Assembly (NCBI RefSeq): GCF_030811115.1
Contig: NZ_JAUSQK010000001.1
Span: 1,302,001 to 1,366,000, forward strand
DNA length: 64,000 nt
Direction: 5' to 3'
Source: Olsenella profusa DSM 13989
GTDB lineage: Bacteria; Actinomycetota; Coriobacteriia; Coriobacteriales; Atopobiaceae
Position 1 is the first letter of the stretch, and every line of letters starts with the position of its first letter. The position numbers and the translations under genes were made by a program. Under the pieces are notes generated by a model, which searched no databases, had not been told where the DNA came from, and worked only from the letters and a program-made list of their open reading frames with translations. Positions 3,100 to 38,621 of this stretch are shown in pieces.

Positions 3100-3543
3100 T
3101 TAGCGTGCCGTGGCACCACCGGGGATCTCGCCTGCGCAGTGCGGGCAGCGGGTGGCGCCGACCTTGACCTCCTCCAGGCAGTGGGGGCAGAGGGGAGCTG
3201 CGGCCTCCTCTTCCTCCTGCCGCTTGTGCGTGAGCCTGGCGGTGGCCTTCTGCAGCCTGTTGATGGCCTTGACCATCATGAACACGATGAGAGCCACGAT
3301 CAGGAAGTTGATGATCGCGGAGATGAAGTTGGAGAAGCCGATGGTGTTGTTGCCCACGGTGATGTCCATGCCCGTGGCATCGGTGCCACCACCGGAGAGG
3401 ATGGCGATGAGCGGTTGGATGATGTCGCTGGTGAGTGAGGTGACGATGGCCGTGAACGCGCCGCCGATGATGATACCGACGGCCATGTCCATGACGTTGC
3501 CCCGCATGATGAACTCTTTGAACTCGCTCATGAACCTCTTCAT
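3100..3543 (-). CDS. mscL: Large-conductance mechanosensitive channel with zinc-ribbon-like tail
   Basis: MscL opens under membrane tension to release osmolytes during hypo-osmotic shock. The 147-residue product has the N-terminal amphipathic helix (MSEFKEFIMRGNVMDMAVGIIIG), TM1, a Gly-rich periplasmic loop and TM2 (FISAIINFLIVALIVFMMV). After the usual cytoplasmic helix it carries an acidic linker and CPHC-x10-CPHC, a zinc-ribbon-like knuckle not found in the E. coli channel. The start at 3543 follows AGGGGGGAACAG. The gene stands alone, 12 bases from the convergent gene at 2782-3087. Confidence 0.93.
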   Translation of the reverse strand: MKRFMSEFKEFIMRGNVMDMAVGIIIGGAFTAIVTSLTSDIIQPLIAILSGGGTDATGMDITVGNNTIGFSNFISAIINFLIVALIVFMMVKAINRLQKATARLTHKRQEEEEAAAPLCPHCLEEVKVGATRCPHCAGEIPGGATAR

Positions 3544-3621
3544 CTGTTCCCCCCTGGTCGTGGTGCAATCGTTTGGCATGATCCTGAGCCGCAACTAGAG
3601 GGCATGGTAACAAAAGTCTTG

Positions 3622-4086
3622 CTAGCGGTGGCGTGGGGTCGTGAGCTCGTCAGTGTCCAGGCAGATGGTCACGGGCCCGTCGTTGACGAGCGAGACTTCC
3701 ATGTGCGCCCCAAAGGTGCCGCGACCCACCTGCGCCACATCCGCCTCGGCAAGGCTGCAGAAGCGCTCGTAGAGCCTGCTGGCCACCGCGGGTTCGGCGG
3801 CACCGGCAAAGCTGGGCCGCCGACCGCGTCGGCAGTCCGCATAGAGCGTGAACTGGCTCACCACCAGCACCTCGCCCGACACGTCGAGGAGCGAGCGGTT
3901 CATCCGTCCCGTCTCGTCGGCAAACACCCGCAGGTGGGAGACCTTATCCCAGAGGAGCTGCGCCGTCCTGTCGCTGTCATGGGGCGCCACGCCCAGCAGG
4001 ATGAGGTAGCCGCTGCCGCAGCGGCCCACCTCCGTGCCATCCACAGAGACGGATGCGCGCCGCACGCGCTGGAGAACCGCTCGCAC
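3622..4086 (-). CDS. dtd: D-aminoacyl-tRNA deacylase
   Basis: Hydrolyses D-amino acids, and glycine mischarged on tRNA-Ala, from tRNA as a proofreading step. The 154-residue protein shows both family signatures: SQFTLYADCRRGRRPSF in the middle and the Gly-cisPro motif in NDGPVTICLDTDE near the C-terminus. The GTG at 4086 has AGGG 5 bases upstream and starts only 7 bases after the stop of the M32 carboxypeptidase gene, so the two are probably co-transcribed. The longer upstream reading has Ser/Pro/Arg-rich composition typical of an out-of-frame shadow. Confidence 0.93.
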   Translation of the reverse strand: MRAVLQRVRRASVSVDGTEVGRCGSGYLILLGVAPHDSDRTAQLLWDKVSHLRVFADETGRMNRSLLDVSGEVLVVSQFTLYADCRRGRRPSFAGAAEPAVASRLYERFCSLAEADVAQVGRGTFGAHMEVSLVNDGPVTICLDTDELTTPRHR

Positions 4087-4093
4087 GATGACC

Positions 4094-5737
4094 CTACAGC
4101 CCGTAGAGGGCCGAGAACTTCTCGGTGAGGTAGGCGGTGTAGTAGCGCGCCGAGAAGGGCTCGCCACAGGCCGCCTCGATGAGCTCGCCCGCGTCCCTGG
4201 AGCGCCCGAAGCGCCATATGTGCTGCCTGAGCCAGGCGTGGATGGGGGAGAGATCGCCGCTCGCGAGCACGCCATCCCAGTCCATGCCCTCCGCGATCAT
4301 CCGATGGCGCAGCTGTGCGCCGATGGCACCACCCAGGGCATACGTGGGGAAGTAGCCAAAGAGGCCATCGGCCCAGTGCGTGTCCTGCAGGGCGCCCTGG
4401 GCGTCGCTCGGCACCTTGACGCCCAGGTACTCCCGGTACTTGGCGCTCCACAGCGCGGGGACGTCCCTGGCCGCACACTCGCCCGCAAAGAGCATCTGCT
4501 CGATCTCATAGCGGACGAGGATGTGCAGGGGATAGGTGAGCTCGTCCGCCTCGGTGCGGACGGGCGTGCCCTCGGCTCGGTTGACGGCCAGGTAGAACTG
4601 GTTGGGCGTCACACGGCCCAACTGCCCCTTGAAGTGGCTGGCCATCACGGCGAGCAGCGGCCCGGCAAAGGCGCGCGAGCGGCCCACGTAGTTCTCGAAG
4701 AAGCGGGACTGTCCCTCGTGCATGCCCGATGACGTGCCACCCTTGAGGGACGTGTAGTTGTAGGCGGACTCCACGCCCGTCTCGTAGAGGGCATGGCCCC
4801 CCTCGTGCAGCATGGTGAACACGTTGGAGCACACGTCATCCTCGCGCACGTGACAGGCGATGAAGCCGTAGTTGGTGGTGAGGGCATCGCTGTAGGGGTG
4901 TTCGGTGGTGGCCAGGAGCATCTTGTTGCCGTCGAGCCCCTCGAGCCTCATGAGGTCGTAGGCGAGTTCCATCTGGCGGCGCTCGTCGAACTTGCCTTCG
5001 ACGACGGTGCGCGGCGGCTGCCAGCCCTTCTGCCGGATGGCGGAGAGCAGGGGCACCACTGCCTGCTTGACCTCGGCAAAGAAGGCGTCGTAGAAGCCAC
5101 GGTCGGTGCCATGCTCGAAGTCGTCCAGCCATACGTCGTACGGGACGGAATCGGGTCTGCGAAGCCTGGCGATGGTGGTGGCCTGCGCCACCAGGCGGTC
5201 GAGGTAGGGTTCGAAGGACGCCCAGTCGTCATCCGCCTTGGCCTTGCGCCACACGGCGTCCGCCTCGTTGGTGAGGCGTGCGAAGCCACCCTGTACGTCG
5301 GCGGGGACGCCCACGAGGCGCGCCCGGTCGCGCTGGATGATGCGTGCCTGTGCCTCCTGCGTCTCGGTGAGGATGTGCCCCATCTTGGAGAGGCGCTCCA
5401 GGAGCTCGCCAGTCTCCTTGGAGCAGAGCAGGGCCTGGTCCTCCTCCTCGAGGATGGACAGCGCCTCGCCGCGGTCCGCCGTGGCGTCCGCGGGATCGAG
5501 CGAGGGGCCATAGCACGAGATGCCCGTGCTCGCATAGCGATGCGCGTAGCGGTGGCGCTCGAGGTTGTCGAGGGCGTCTATGTCCGCCTTGGGGTTGCCG
5601 ATGGCGGCCGGGCTCGTTTTGGGCGGCATGCCGTCCGAGGGCGCCGCATGCGCGGCCTGATGGGTGTTGGGTGCGGTGACGCTCTCGTCTGCCATGGGGT
5701 TCCCCGTTTCTCTTGCGTTTGACGGTGTTGTGGACAT
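4094..5737 (-). CDS. Carboxypeptidase Taq (M32) family metallopeptidase
   Basis: A zinc-dependent carboxypeptidase that removes C-terminal residues from peptides in the cytoplasm. The 547-residue product carries the zinc motif HEGGH in FTMLHEGGHALYETG, a later conserved HEGQSRFFENYVG segment that supplies the third ligand, and the M32 segments GTPVRTEADELTYPLHILVRYEIEQ and DTHWADGLFGYFPTYALG. The first 45 residues are low-complexity. An ATG at 5695, with GGGGA 5 bases upstream, is an alternative start giving 533 residues. It is the first gene of a unit with dtd. Confidence 0.92.
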   Translation of the reverse strand: MSTTPSNARETGNPMADESVTAPNTHQAAHAAPSDGMPPKTSPAAIGNPKADIDALDNLERHRYAHRYASTGISCYGPSLDPADATADRGEALSILEEEDQALLCSKETGELLERLSKMGHILTETQEAQARIIQRDRARLVGVPADVQGGFARLTNEADAVWRKAKADDDWASFEPYLDRLVAQATTIARLRRPDSVPYDVWLDDFEHGTDRGFYDAFFAEVKQAVVPLLSAIRQKGWQPPRTVVEGKFDERRQMELAYDLMRLEGLDGNKMLLATTEHPYSDALTTNYGFIACHVREDDVCSNVFTMLHEGGHALYETGVESAYNYTSLKGGTSSGMHEGQSRFFENYVGRSRAFAGPLLAVMASHFKGQLGRVTPNQFYLAVNRAEGTPVRTEADELTYPLHILVRYEIEQMLFAGECAARDVPALWSAKYREYLGVKVPSDAQGALQDTHWADGLFGYFPTYALGGAIGAQLRHRMIAEGMDWDGVLASGDLSPIHAWLRQHIWRFGRSRDAGELIEAACGEPFSARYYTAYLTEKFSALYGL

Positions 5738-17591: not shown

Positions 17592-17676
17592 GATCGTCCT
17601 TCCTGGTGGTCGTATGCCCAAGGAAACAGGTAGGCCCCTCCCTTGCGGAGAGACGTGCCCAGACGGTCGGCGCTCC

Positions 17677-17733
17677 GTTGCGTGCCACCCCACCGTGGTG
17701 CCCCACGAAGCCCCATCAGTCACGGCACGCAAC
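17677..17733. repeat. Inverted repeat upstream of purO
   Basis: GTTGCGTGCC (17677-17686) and GGCACGCAAC (17724-17733) are a perfect 10-bp inverted repeat, with a small CACC-GT-GGTG hairpin inside. Thirteen bases further on is ATCACGTGAT (17746-17755), a perfect 10-bp palindrome. Both lie in the roughly 295-base divergent region between purO and the broken reductase gene and could be regulatory. Confidence 0.45.
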
Positions 17734-33998: not shown

Positions 33999-34910
33999 TC
34001 AACCACCCTGCGGTGGCAGATGGATGTCATGTCGCAGGTCCCTGGCGGGGCGAGCGTCCGCGTGGGGCTGTCCGTGCGTCGCGGCCCTGAGGCGCTGGTT
34101 GCGTAGGTTGGTGACGGTGCCCCGCATGCCGTGGGGCACGTAGGTGGCGGCCATGGCATCGAGGTCTGCGGGCAGGTAGTCGACGAGGCTCATCGATCCC
34201 CTCTGCCCCACGCAGGCTGGGATGGGAGTGGTCTGGGGTGTGGCCTCCACGGCATAGACCGTGGCGCCCTGGGCGGAGAGGCGTCTTTCGTACCAGCTCA
34301 TGACATCGTCCGACCGCTCGGCGCGCGCGTCCTCGCTCTGCCAGAGCACGTCGTAGCCGGCCAGATCGAGTTGGTCGAGCGAGAAGCGCCAGAGCGGATA
34401 GCTGTCCGTCTTCAAGAGCAGGCGCGCGTCGGGTGCCAGGAGCCTGCGGTATTCCAGCAGGCGGTCCGCATGCGTGAGGCGCAGGTGAGCCTCCTTGCGC
34501 CTAGGGAAGGGCGTCGGGAAGTTGAGGTAGATGCCGTCGAGCTCACCGGGGGCAAAGGCGTCTGAGAGACGGTCCGCCGAGCGCGGTACGAGCACCATGT
34601 TGTGAAGGTGCCGTCTGACGGCCTTCTCCGCTGCGTAGGCCATGCAGACGGGCTCGAAGTCCACGCCCACGAAGAGGGTCGTGGGGTCGCGCTCGGCCAT
34701 GTCCGCCGTGAAGCCACCCTTGCCACAGCCCAGGTCAAGCCACAGCCCTTGGTAGGCGTGCGGCCCGTCTTGGCCCTCCCTGAGGGGATGGCAGGCCTCG
34801 CGCCAGCGCCCGGCGTAGCTCTGGGGCCGCACCTCGATGGCATCCGCATACCGCTCGAGGCGCTCCTCGAGCACGAAGTGCTTGGGAAGTCTGGTGCGGA
34901 TTGCATGCAT
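33999..34910 (-). CDS. trmB: tRNA (guanine-N7)-methyltransferase
   Basis: Methylates G46 in the variable loop of tRNA using SAM. The 303-residue protein has the SAM loop WLDLGCGKGGFTADMAERDP, the acidic strand end FVGVDFEPV, and the family motif LNFPTPFPRRKEAHLRLTH. It extends about 80 residues past the usual end of the family with no recognised domain. The start at 34910 follows TAGGAGG by 4 bases. The long hairpin at 34992-35097 sits 80 bases upstream and would lie in its leader. Confidence 0.92.
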   Translation of the reverse strand: MHAIRTRLPKHFVLEERLERYADAIEVRPQSYAGRWREACHPLREGQDGPHAYQGLWLDLGCGKGGFTADMAERDPTTLFVGVDFEPVCMAYAAEKAVRRHLHNMVLVPRSADRLSDAFAPGELDGIYLNFPTPFPRRKEAHLRLTHADRLLEYRRLLAPDARLLLKTDSYPLWRFSLDQLDLAGYDVLWQSEDARAERSDDVMSWYERRLSAQGATVYAVEATPQTTPIPACVGQRGSMSLVDYLPADLDAMAATYVPHGMRGTVTNLRNQRLRAATHGQPHADARPARDLRHDIHLPPQGG

Positions 34911-34991
34911 GTGGCCTCCTATCTTCCATTTGTTGCATTTGGGAGCTGAGTATCGAATGCCTCCAGGTGCAATGCAGATCGTGTCGAGAAA

Positions 34992-35097
34992 GTAGGTGCC
35001 CCTAGGTAGGGAAACGGCCACTGCCTCTCGTCGCATCCATTGTCTCGCAACTGCGAACTCTAAGGCGGCGGCCGTTTCCCTACCTAGGGGCACCTAC
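34992..35097. repeat. Long nested hairpin element, 28-bp perfect arms
   Basis: The arms 34992-35019 and 35070-35097 are a perfect 28-bp inverted repeat (left arm begins GTAGGTGCCCC, ends GAAACGGCC) around a 50-base centre. Inside is TCGCA-AC-TGCGA, a perfect 5-bp hairpin. The architecture matches the elements at 48-90 and 16792-16876. It separates trmB from the mtn locus. No gene is associated. Confidence 0.85.
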
Positions 35098-35166
35098 ACC
35101 AGAGACTCCGACGTGATCCCCACTCCTTGGCAAAGGCAATGGGAATATGGGATCAAACCAATGTAA

Positions 35167-35552
35167 GTACAGTTTAAAATTGTCATCACGCCAACTGGCG
35201 TCGATCGCGAGTGGCTGTCACCCAGCGACTTGGTCGTGATCGACCTTGGCGGCCACGTCGTTGAGAACCTCTCGTGACTCAGGCCTACGAGCGAGGCAAC
35301 GATGCACAGGACATGTTCGAGGCATATCTCAAGGCCCCATACGTGGAAGAGGTGGCACATCTCTATTACAATGCGCTGAGTATTTCGGATGGTACGGAGA
35401 TGCATGACCCTTCTCAGGAGGAGCTGGATGCGTGGAGATATCCTTCGGAGGCTATCACAGAGGGGATAGCACATGACGAGGGCAAACTCGGATACAGGGC
35501 AAGGGAAGTGGAAAGGGCGAGGCAGGATGTCACGTTTTACCAAGTATTTTGA
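35167..35552 (+). pseudogene. Remnant of a class II (fuculose-phosphate-type) aldolase
   Basis: Two fragments of one aldolase in different frames. Fragment 1 (35167-35277) reads KIVITPTGVDREWLSPSDLV followed by VIDLGGHVVENLS, matching the MLITPTG...L...VFID strand of FucA-like aldolases. Fragment 2 (35274-35552) reads APYVEEVAHLYYNALSISDG followed by TEMHDPSQEELD, matching the C-terminal helix. About 40 N-terminal residues and about 100 central residues, including the zinc-binding His and catalytic Glu, are gone. It runs into the start of mtnK. In intact loci such an aldolase would act after mtnK and mtnA. Confidence 0.7.
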
Positions 35553-36750
35553 GATGAGTCCAGATGATGTTGTGGAGTATGCGCTTGAGAAGACACCAGA
35601 GATAGGGTGGGATCGCGCATCCATCAAGGCGGTCGTGCCTCCTGAGCATGGAAACCTGAATTACGTCTTTCGCGTGACGGATGGCGTCGGTCACTCGCTC
35701 TACATTAAGCAGGCTGGGATGGAGACGCGCATCTCGAAGGACATGAAGCCCTCGACTGATAGAAACCGCATCGAATCTGAGATCCTTGAGGTGGAGGGCA
35801 AGCTGGCACCTGGCATGGTTCCACACGTATATTTCTATGACACCATCATGTGCGCCTGTGGGCTCGAGGATTGCAGTGACTTCGAAGTCATGAGGGATGC
35901 GATGCTCAGGCATGAGACGTTTCCACACTTTGCGGAGGCCATCTCGACGTTTATGGTCGACACGCTTCTGCTGAGTAGTGATGTCGTCATGAATCATCAG
36001 GAGAAGAAACGCCTCGTACAGAGGTTCGTCTCTCCAGACTTGTGTGACATTACCGAGAAGCTCGTGCTGATGGAACCATATGGTGACCATGAGGGACGTA
36101 ACAACGTTTTTCCTCCCAACAGGCAGTTCGTTGAGGAACAGCTTTATGCGGATCAGAGGTTGCATCTGGAGGTCGCAAAACTCAAGTTCAAGTTTATGAC
36201 AGACGCCCAAGCCCTTCTGCACGGTGACTTGCATACAGGATCAATCTTCATCGCACCAGACGCTATGAAGGTGTTCGATTCGGAATTTGGTACCTATGCA
36301 CCGATGGGATATGACACGGGCAATGTCGTCGCAAACCTCATTTTTGCCTATGACAATGGACTGGCGACAGAGGATGAGCCATTCTGCACATGGGTACTCG
36401 ATACCATCGAACAGATGGTCGACAAATTCGTCACAAAGTTCAACAAGAGGTTCGACGAACGTGTGACCGAGCCGATGGCCCAGGTACCTGGCTTCAAGGA
36501 ATGGTACCTCGAAAGCATACTTGATGATACGGCTGGTTATGCGGGCACAGAACTCCACCGCCGGACCGTGGGCCTTGCCAATGTTGCTGACGTTACAAGC
36601 ATCAAGGATGAAAAGAGACGCCTATTGGCGGAACGCATCAATATCCTTGCCGGAAAGGACTACATACTGCATCAACGTGCATTTCGCTCGGGCAAGGACT
36701 TCGTCGGTGCGGTCAGGCGCGCCGAGGACGCTGCCATGAGGACCCTGTAA
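35527..36750 (+). CDS. mtnK: 5-methylthioribose kinase
   Basis: Phosphorylates 5-methylthioribose, and 5-deoxyribose in some organisms, at C1 in salvage of SAM by-products. The 407-residue protein has the protein-kinase-like fold: GNLNYVFRV, the catalytic loop ALLHGDLHTGSIFI and the metal-binding VFDSEFGTYAP. The ATG at 35527 lies in the tail of the aldolase remnant. It lies 31 bases upstream of mtnA. No MTA nucleosidase gene (mtnN/pfs) is nearby. Confidence 0.92.
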   Translation: MSRFTKYFEMSPDDVVEYALEKTPEIGWDRASIKAVVPPEHGNLNYVFRVTDGVGHSLYIKQAGMETRISKDMKPSTDRNRIESEILEVEGKLAPGMVPHVYFYDTIMCACGLEDCSDFEVMRDAMLRHETFPHFAEAISTFMVDTLLLSSDVVMNHQEKKRLVQRFVSPDLCDITEKLVLMEPYGDHEGRNNVFPPNRQFVEEQLYADQRLHLEVAKLKFKFMTDAQALLHGDLHTGSIFIAPDAMKVFDSEFGTYAPMGYDTGNVVANLIFAYDNGLATEDEPFCTWVLDTIEQMVDKFVTKFNKRFDERVTEPMAQVPGFKEWYLESILDDTAGYAGTELHRRTVGLANVADVTSIKDEKRRLLAERINILAGKDYILHQRAFRSGKDFVGAVRRAEDAAMRTL

Positions 36751-36781
36751 CAGCCAGTGGGAACGCAAGAGGAGCTTAGTC

Positions 36782-37882
36782 ATGAACGTTGAGGAATTCT
36801 TTAACAAGGTCGTTACCGTTCGCATGAGCCCTGATGAGAGCGCACTCGACATCATAGACCAGACGCTTCTTCCCGGCACCATCAAGCGCATTGAGATATC
36901 AAGCAGGGTGGAGATCTGGGACGCCATCAAGCGGCTGCGCGTGCGCGGTGCACCTGCAATTGGTGTTGCGGCTGCATATGGCATCGCGCTTCTGGCGTCT
37001 CGTATCGAGTCGAACGGCCTTGATGACTTCTATGCCAAGTTTACAGAGGAAAAAGACTATCTTGCCTCCTCTCGTCCTACGGCAGTGAATCTGTTCTGGG
37101 CGCTCGATCGCATGGACCGTGTCGTCAAGAACCATGCGGATGATTCTCCTGATGACATCAAAGAGGCGCTCTTTGCCGAGGCTGACGCCATTCGAGAAGA
37201 GGATGTGCAGATAAGCCGTGCGATTGGCGAGATTGGCTTTGGGCTGCTCAGGGATCTCAAGAGGAACGGTCAAGCGGTTGGGATTCTGACGCACTGCAAT
37301 GCCGGTACGCTTGCCACTGCAAAGTATGGTACGGCCACCGCACCTATGTACCTGGCTCTCGAACACGGGTGGGCTGGAACGGACATGCATGTGTACTGCG
37401 ATGAGACGAGGCCGCTGTTGCAAGGTGCACGCCTGACATCCTTTGAGCTTTACCATGCGGGAATCACTACTACGCTGCAGTGTGACAACATGGCCTCCAT
37501 CCTCATGAGATCCGGCAAGATCGACGTCATCTTCGTTGGGTGCGATCGTGTGGCAAGGAATGGTGACACGGCAAACAAAATTGGAACATCCGGGGTAGCG
37601 ATTCTTGCCCACCATTACGGGATTCCATTCTATGTCTGTGCGCCAAGCTCGACCATTGACATGGACACACCAACAGGAGAGCAGATTCCCATCGAGATGC
37701 GCAATCCCGACGAAGTGACGGAGATGTGGTATCGAGAGCGTATGGCCCCTGAGGGCGTTGACGTCTTCAATCCGGCTTTTGACGTGACGGATCACGGCCT
37801 CATCACGGGCGTCATTACGGAAAAGGGTCTGTGCCACACCCCTTATGACGAGGCTTTCCTCGACCTTGGCATGGGTCTATAG
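36782..37882 (+). CDS. mtnA: Methylthioribose-1-phosphate isomerase
   Basis: Converts the kinase product to 5-methylthioribulose 1-phosphate. The 366-residue protein belongs to the eIF2B-related isomerase family, with RVRGAPAIGVAAAYGIALL, the active-site Cys in THCNAGTLATAKYGTA, and the Asp in VGCDRVARNGDTANKIGTS. The start follows GAGGAG by 7 bases. Downstream salvage enzymes (mtnB, mtnC, mtnD or an aldolase) are not present in working form here. Confidence 0.95.
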   Translation: MNVEEFFNKVVTVRMSPDESALDIIDQTLLPGTIKRIEISSRVEIWDAIKRLRVRGAPAIGVAAAYGIALLASRIESNGLDDFYAKFTEEKDYLASSRPTAVNLFWALDRMDRVVKNHADDSPDDIKEALFAEADAIREEDVQISRAIGEIGFGLLRDLKRNGQAVGILTHCNAGTLATAKYGTATAPMYLALEHGWAGTDMHVYCDETRPLLQGARLTSFELYHAGITTTLQCDNMASILMRSGKIDVIFVGCDRVARNGDTANKIGTSGVAILAHHYGIPFYVCAPSSTIDMDTPTGEQIPIEMRNPDEVTEMWYRERMAPEGVDVFNPAFDVTDHGLITGVITEKGLCHTPYDEAFLDLGMGL

Positions 37883-37904
37883 GGGGTCACCTACCTGAGG
37901 TGCA

Positions 37905-37930
37905 CGAGGCGGAGGCACGGATCCGCCTCG
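37905..37930 (+). terminator. Hairpin after mtnA
   Basis: CGAGGCGGA (37905-37913) and TCCGCCTCG (37922-37930) form a perfect 9-bp stem with an 8-base loop, 22 bases after the mtnA stop. It is followed only by TTG. Confidence 0.5.
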
Positions 37931-38018
37931 TTGCCCCGGCTGATTCGTTCCCCTCGCCTCCGTCCCTGCATGCCGTACGATGACCAGTGACCGTCACACG
38001 CCATTGGAAGGATAGCCC

Positions 38019-38621
38019 ATGGATCGCCAGCAGTCGCACTTCTCGGCGATACTCTCACGCCTCAGGTACATCGATCGCTGGGCGCTCATGCGCAACGCGC
38101 GCACGGAGAACCTCAGCGAGCACTCGCTGGAGGTGGCCATGATCGCGCACCTGCTGTGTGTGATCGGCAACGTGCGCCATGCCCGGAGGCTCGACGCCAA
38201 CCGTGCCGCGCTTGTGGGCATGTACCATGATGTGGCGGAGATCATCACCGGCGACATGCCCACGCCGGTCAAGTATGCCAACGGGCATATCCGTGATGCC
38301 TACAGGGACGTGGAGGCAGCGGCCGAGGAGCGCCTCCTGGACACGCTGCCTGCCGACCTACGGCCCACCTTCGTGGAGACGCTCGCGACGGGGGAGGGCG
38401 AGGCGGACCAGTACCTCGCACGCCTGGTGAAGGCGGCCGACAAGCTCTCCGCGCTCATCAAGTGCCTCGAGGAGCGTGCGGCAGGCAACACCGAGTTTGC
38501 GACGGCAGAGGCCGCCACCCGCGCCAAGCTCGACGAGATGGCGGCGGAGCTTCCCGAGGTGGCCGACTTCATGGAGGAGTTCCTGCCATCGTATGGCAGC
38601 ACGCTCGATCAGCTGCTGTGA
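38019..38621 (+). CDS. YfbR-like 5'-deoxynucleotidase (HD domain)
   Basis: A 200-residue HD-domain protein of the YfbR family, which dephosphorylates deoxyribonucleoside 5'-monophosphates. The N-terminus has RYIDRWALMRNARTENLSEHSLEVAMIAHLL with the first His, followed by GMYHDVAEIITGDMPTPVKY, the HD pair and family signature, and a later AADKLSALIKCLEE with the last metal Asp. The start follows GGAAGG. A link to the adjacent methylthioribose/deoxyribose salvage genes is possible but only by position. Confidence 0.9.
   Translation: MDRQQSHFSAILSRLRYIDRWALMRNARTENLSEHSLEVAMIAHLLCVIGNVRHARRLDANRAALVGMYHDVAEIITGDMPTPVKYANGHIRDAYRDVEAAAEERLLDTLPADLRPTFVETLATGEGEADQYLARLVKAADKLSALIKCLEERAAGNTEFATAEAATRAKLDEMAAELPEVADFMEEFLPSYGSTLDQLL

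Follow-up and report, generated by a model that had tools for sequence, protein, structure and literature searches.

The window analyzed here is a stretch of 64,000 nucleotides from Olsenella profusa DSM 13989, corresponding to bases 1302001 to 1366000 of the 2.62-Mb single-contig genome; coordinates below are those of the window unless a genome position is given. The locus contains a long palindrome flanked by trmB on one side and by an aldolase pseudogene, two methylthioribose genes, and a 5′-deoxynucleotidase gene on the other:

33999 to 34910, minus strand: trmB, a conserved neighbor; its start codon is 66 bp from the start of the palindrome, which lies upstream
34977 to 35118, no strand: whole palindrome of two 5′ IS256 ends, 142 bp, with GATC at both outer ends as in IS 5′ ends (from profile scores and alignment)
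34977 to 34991, plus strand: outer IS end on the left, GATCGTGTCGAGAAA; TGGTGTAA, the motif that comes next in intact IS ends, is lost here
34992 to 35019, plus strand: left arm, perfect over 28 bp
35020 to 35069, no strand: center of 50 nt; its minus strand resembles a degenerate IS256 leader hairpin
35045 to 35056, no strand: inner palindrome TCGCA-AC-TGCGA, from the original prediction
35070 to 35097, minus strand: right arm, perfect over 28 bp
35098 to 35118, minus strand: right outer IS end, reading inward GATCACGTCGGAGTCTCTGGT
35179 to 35453, plus strand: class II aldolase pseudogene, with residues 39 to 91 and 167 to 217 of the G084 homologue recognizable in different frames
35536 to 36750, plus strand: mtnK, S-methyl-5-thioribose kinase (TIGR01767, 353.9 bits; cutoff, 275)
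36782 to 37882, plus strand: mtnA, S-methyl-5-thioribose-1-phosphate isomerase (TIGR00512, 421.8 bits; cutoff, 279)
38019 to 38621, plus strand: 5′-deoxynucleotidase gene, which adjoins trmB in the congeners G001 and G002

A long inverted repeat between trmB and mtnK

The two arms, GTAGGTGCCCCTAGGTAGGGAAACGGCC (34992 to 35019) and GGCCGTTTCCCTACCTAGGGGCACCTAC (35070 to 35097), are exact reverse complements of 28 bp each around a center of 50 nt, which bears out the original prediction of a perfect inverted repeat at this place. When two mismatches are tolerated, the arm length rises to 35 bp. Among the short-range perfect repeats in the window, this one is by far the longest, the runner-up across the whole window being 15 bp (spacer of ≤200 nt). 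Outward of the arms, imperfect complementarity goes on (GATCGTGTCG...CGACGTGATC); because these ends pair beyond the arms, we treat positions 34977 to 35118, a quasi-palindrome of 142 bp, as the natural unit. Folded as DNA, the 142 nt are 9.9 standard deviations below dinucleotide shuffles, with none of 200 shuffles as stable; folded as RNA, the two strands give z = −11.7 and −10.4 against dinucleotide shuffles. The inverted repeat is real, and chance is excluded. A nested inner hairpin had also been proposed: the TCGCA-AC-TGCGA letters are present at 35045 to 35056, but the predicted structure of the center differs from a TCGCA/TGCGA hairpin. The sole Rfam match in the window is a ZMP/ZTP riboswitch (RF01750, 49.6 bits; 17650 to 17733, minus strand).

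Relationship of the palindrome to IS256-family ends

Within its own genome, the palindrome matched itself and one other place, at 50.92 to 50.98 kb, and a 20-mer from the arm, with up to three mismatches allowed, matched just the two arms. That second place proves to be the upstream (5′) end of an IS256-family element that is intact and whose DDE Mutator-type transposase is recognized by PF00872 (8e-97) and by the NCBIfam model transpos_IS256 (NF033543; 299 bits against a cutoff of 150). Inward from its tips, this element reads GGTAGTGTCGGAAATGTTGGTG at the 3′ end and GATCGTGTCGAGAAAGTTGGTG at the 5′ end; on its flanks is an exact 8-bp target duplication, TAGTAATT. The element (L005, ~3537 to 4980; genome, ~49.5 to 51.0 kb) interrupts a capsule-type gene which, by eye, we take to be tyrosine kinase-like. 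Exact 8-bp duplications at the same boundaries were found for 8 of the 18 family elements with both ends located, and the IS ends contain a subterminal TGTAA(A/G). A subterminal TGTAAA is known in IS256 members, and copies of ISCth4 have 8-bp duplications (PMC7780238). With a single copy in the genome even at three mismatches per 20-mer, the palindrome is ruled out as a dispersed repeat; the original prediction had raised such an element, and the count is instead one palindrome plus one intact related IS. Searches of phages and plasmids, and of viral contigs with the 20-mer arm, yielded no match.

The IS ends of relatives are asymmetric: 5′ ends (upstream of the transposase) mostly start with GATC and 3′ ends (downstream) mostly with GGTA. 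End profiles were computed for the two types (20 5′ ends and 18 3′ ends from related genomes), with the IS of O. profusa itself left out. As a control, the ends of that IS were sorted correctly: its 5′ end scored 59.9 bits with the 5′ profile versus 25.2 bits with the 3′ profile, and its 3′ end scored 20.4 versus 42.1 bits, respectively. Both arms of the palindrome scored as 5′ ends (right arm, 25.4 bits with the 5′ profile versus 4.3 bits with the 3′ profile; left arm, 19.4 versus 4.2 bits). Alignment with the 5′ end of the intact IS gave 45 of 50 identical bases for one arm and 47 of 53 for the other. Both outer ends of the 142-bp unit begin with GATC, matching the transposase-proximal end of IS256 elements, and the center has, on its minus strand, the look of a degenerate IS leader. 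The unit contains no transposase gene and is too short for one.

Since both arms are of the 5′ type, the end profiles exclude a simple internal deletion that joined a 5′ end to a 3′ end. The octamers flanking the unit differ (GCAATGCA versus CCCCACTC); accordingly, no target duplication and no insertion event are visible at the site. Judged by these alignments and profiles, the palindrome is derived from the IS256 family. It resembles that family (e.g., ISCth4; PMC7780238) in its terminal sequences and in the asymmetry of left and right ends, and its relatives do so in the subterminal TGTAA(A/G) and, where intact, in their 8-bp duplications; it differs in having no transposase, two 5′ ends instead of a 5′ and a 3′ end, and no target duplication.

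Related palindromes and the border of the mtn segment

Further palindromes made of two 5′ IS256 ends and without target duplication were found in two other genera of the family. A 178-bp form with the leader hairpin is shared by G093 and G029, two species of genus g27 (positions 1485 to 1662 of both L066 and L068), in both cases directly downstream of a gene whose product looks, by eye, like an AAA-ATPase/PD-(D/E)XK protein. The form in G105 (L121; contig C31, ~84996 to 85065) is 70 bp long and nearly perfect, GATCGTGTCGGAAAAGTTGGTGTAAGC...GCTTACACCAACTTTTCCGACACGATC, with no 8-bp target duplication. It is the sole IS-end palindrome among the five places given by a short-gap scan of the family for end palindromes. 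With the long-gap pattern, G093 and G029 are true cases, and two further matches are chance-like; no 3′/3′ palindromes were met, and this pattern, being tuned to 5′ leaders, gives no fair count of them. A match in G064 looks like chance. The profiles score both ends of the G093 copy as the 5′ type. The G093 and G029 copies have a common left flank (97%) and different right flanks. In the G093 copy, one end resembles one IS subtype and the other end another; this is more in keeping with recombination between hairpins than with the snap-back template switching considered below, and the origin of these palindromes may thus not be the same everywhere.

The congeners G001 and G002 have trmB immediately next to the divergent 5′-deoxynucleotidase gene, and in G003 the two are separated by one other gene, presumably flavodoxin-reductase-like from a reading of its sequence. 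The O. profusa interval is occupied by the palindrome, the aldolase pseudogene, mtnK, and mtnA, and its GC content is 50 to 57% (34990 to 37990) versus 64% for the window. The low GC content and the side-by-side arrangement in G001 and G002 both suggest that the mtnK-mtnA segment was probably gained horizontally. The palindrome lies at the trmB-side border of this segment; a search for an IS end at the right border found none.

The aldolase beside mtnK-mtnA is probably that of the DHAP shunt. A full-length aldolase paralogue, 55% identical to the G084 aldolase, is encoded at genome position C1:81601-82254 (L115) and might complete the pathway. The pseudogene is recognizable only from residue 39 (position 35179), ~60 bp past the palindrome, and is also without roughly residues 92 to 166, a separate internal deletion. 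When the missing N terminus was sought in 35119 to 35172, the best alignment was no better than shuffles (489 of 500 were at least as good); a hidden N terminus was rejected, the similarity being at chance level. Given a ~60-bp gap with chance similarity and a second, separate deletion, the loss of the aldolase start cannot be attributed to the palindrome in the way that had been proposed. The broader proposal, that the element marks an insertion or recombination event, fits: the ends are of the IS256 family, and they border a low-GC segment that two congeners do not have between trmB and the deoxynucleotidase gene.

Tentatively, the palindrome could be the scar of the very rearrangement by which the mtn segment arrived and the aldolase lost its start. 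Its place at the trmB border of a GC-poor segment missing from G001 and G002 speaks for such a scar, and unrelated flanks without a target duplication fit as well, as does the common left flank with differing right flanks in G093 and G029. The right border with no IS end in sight speaks against it, as do the distance to the recognizable aldolase and the second deletion within that gene. This reading is compatible with the explanation that we favor below.

Origin and maintenance of the palindrome

Strain F0195 (NZ_AWEZ01000006.1; mtnK match, 100%) carries the palindrome and its neighborhood at the same site. The window and F0195 differ by 26 substitutions over ~2.9 kb, 4 of them within the 142 bp. 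Two of these four are exactly opposite and complementary in the stem (T35003C with A35086G, changing T:A to C:G), and the other two produce a wobble (C35112T) and a broken pair (T35077G). With four changes placed at random, a complementary pair would turn up in 0.9% of sets. The F0195 state looks derived, because the IS ends closest to the palindrome carry T at the 35003/35086 site. Template switching can give rise to perfect stems, keep them perfect, and produce compensatory pairs in one event (PMC8794818), and the aligned sequences suggest that the double change in F0195 reflects a template-switch correction from arm to arm. The change fits template switching and pairing selection alike, and one event cannot decide between them. 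The original prediction had read the long, perfect arms as a sign of recent origin or of selection on both arms; of this, "recent" is doubtful, since the same site is occupied in F0195 with four substitutions and the outer ends of the arms have diverged.

We consider it likely that the palindrome is a defunct, transposase-less IS256 remnant, in which two 5′ ends are joined head to head through the leader hairpin, with a snap-back origin and upkeep of one arm by the other. Several results point this way: (i) outside its own site, the palindrome matches nothing in the genome except the intact IS256 element, at its 5′ end, and that element has an exact 8-bp duplication; (ii) both arms fit the 5′ profile and not the 3′ profile, around a center like an IS leader; and (iii) similar 5′/5′ palindromes exist in G093/G029 and G105, and F0195 shows the complementary double change. 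Such a structure would owe its origin not to normal insertion but to a snap-back at the leader hairpin, where replication switched templates, perhaps on the occasion of an aborted copy-out event, and the 28-bp stretch would have been kept perfect by quasipalindrome template switching that corrected arm against arm. Quasipalindromes corrected in this way (PMC8794818, PMC7202029) likewise have a long perfect stem and complementary double changes between strains, as if one arm had been copied onto the other; here, the starting material differs in being an IS end, and the mechanism is read from two strains. Counting against this explanation are the lack of an 8-bp target duplication, a complementary change that is single and confined to one other strain, the stem-breaking change in F0195, and the differing end subtypes in G093.

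A conventional MITE, that is, an IS256 internal deletion retaining both ends and mobilized in trans by the IS transposase, is unlikely. Like IS-derived bacterial MITEs such as MITECca01 from ISCca4 (PMC9769881), the palindrome is short and noncoding, has no transposase gene and short, IS-like inverted ends, and shares its genome with an intact related IS. It differs from them in its single copy, in the lack of a target duplication, and in having two ends of the same type, whereas a deletion would have left one 5′ and one 3′ end; the TGGTGTAA motif is also lost from its left end.

We regard it as very unlikely that the palindrome serves trmB or the mtn genes as an attenuator or structured leader RNA whose pairing is under selection. 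The very stable predicted fold, the shared site in two strains of one species with one complementary double change, and the position between two divergently oriented genes would suit such a role, but the palindrome has no Rfam match, shows neither a terminator nor a promoter pattern, and lacks a counterpart at trmB of congeners or ahead of the G084 aldolase-mtnK genes; its homology to IS ends is clear, and one change in F0195 breaks the stem. A search of 34880 to 35560 for an intrinsic terminator (G+C-rich stem, short loop, and T run) found no site, the loop of the palindrome being 50 nt. Conservation of a single copy in place with compensatory changes had been named beforehand as the mark of a leader RNA; one such change was seen, in one strain, and the IS homology, together with the finding that the G084 mtn genes have no such element, favors derivation from a transposon. 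A regulatory role is possible but unsupported, and the palindrome probably has no regulatory job now.

The IS256 remnant that we favor also invites comparison with the Mutator-superfamily foldback elements of root-knot nematodes (Tm1; PMC3169594). The two have in common a related transposase superfamily (IS256/MULE) and long foldback inverted repeats; the Tm1 elements differ in being multicopy and eukaryotic, with mostly 9-bp duplications and composite repeats. The O. profusa palindrome is a dead IS256-end palindrome of unusual same-end design that behaves like a quasipalindrome scar, a modest curiosity and no new system.

An apparently exceptional palindrome thus turns out to be an ordinary transposon scar, with the unusual twist that one and the same type of IS end supplied both halves. 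It also serves as a caution that a complementary change in a lone palindrome is no proof of RNA structure. The same-end architecture recurs in at least three genera. A more general proposal, which we regard as rather doubtful, is that, in this bacterial family, IS256 copy-out repeatedly generates 5′/5′ palindromes as a by-product: a replicating strand would enter the 5′ end, fold back at the leader hairpin, and copy out again, leaving scars that are bounded exactly by the IS tips and have no target duplication; template-switch correction would then keep these scars perfect, and they would mark the borders of rearrangements. If this were true, such palindromes would be a readable footprint of aborted transposition.
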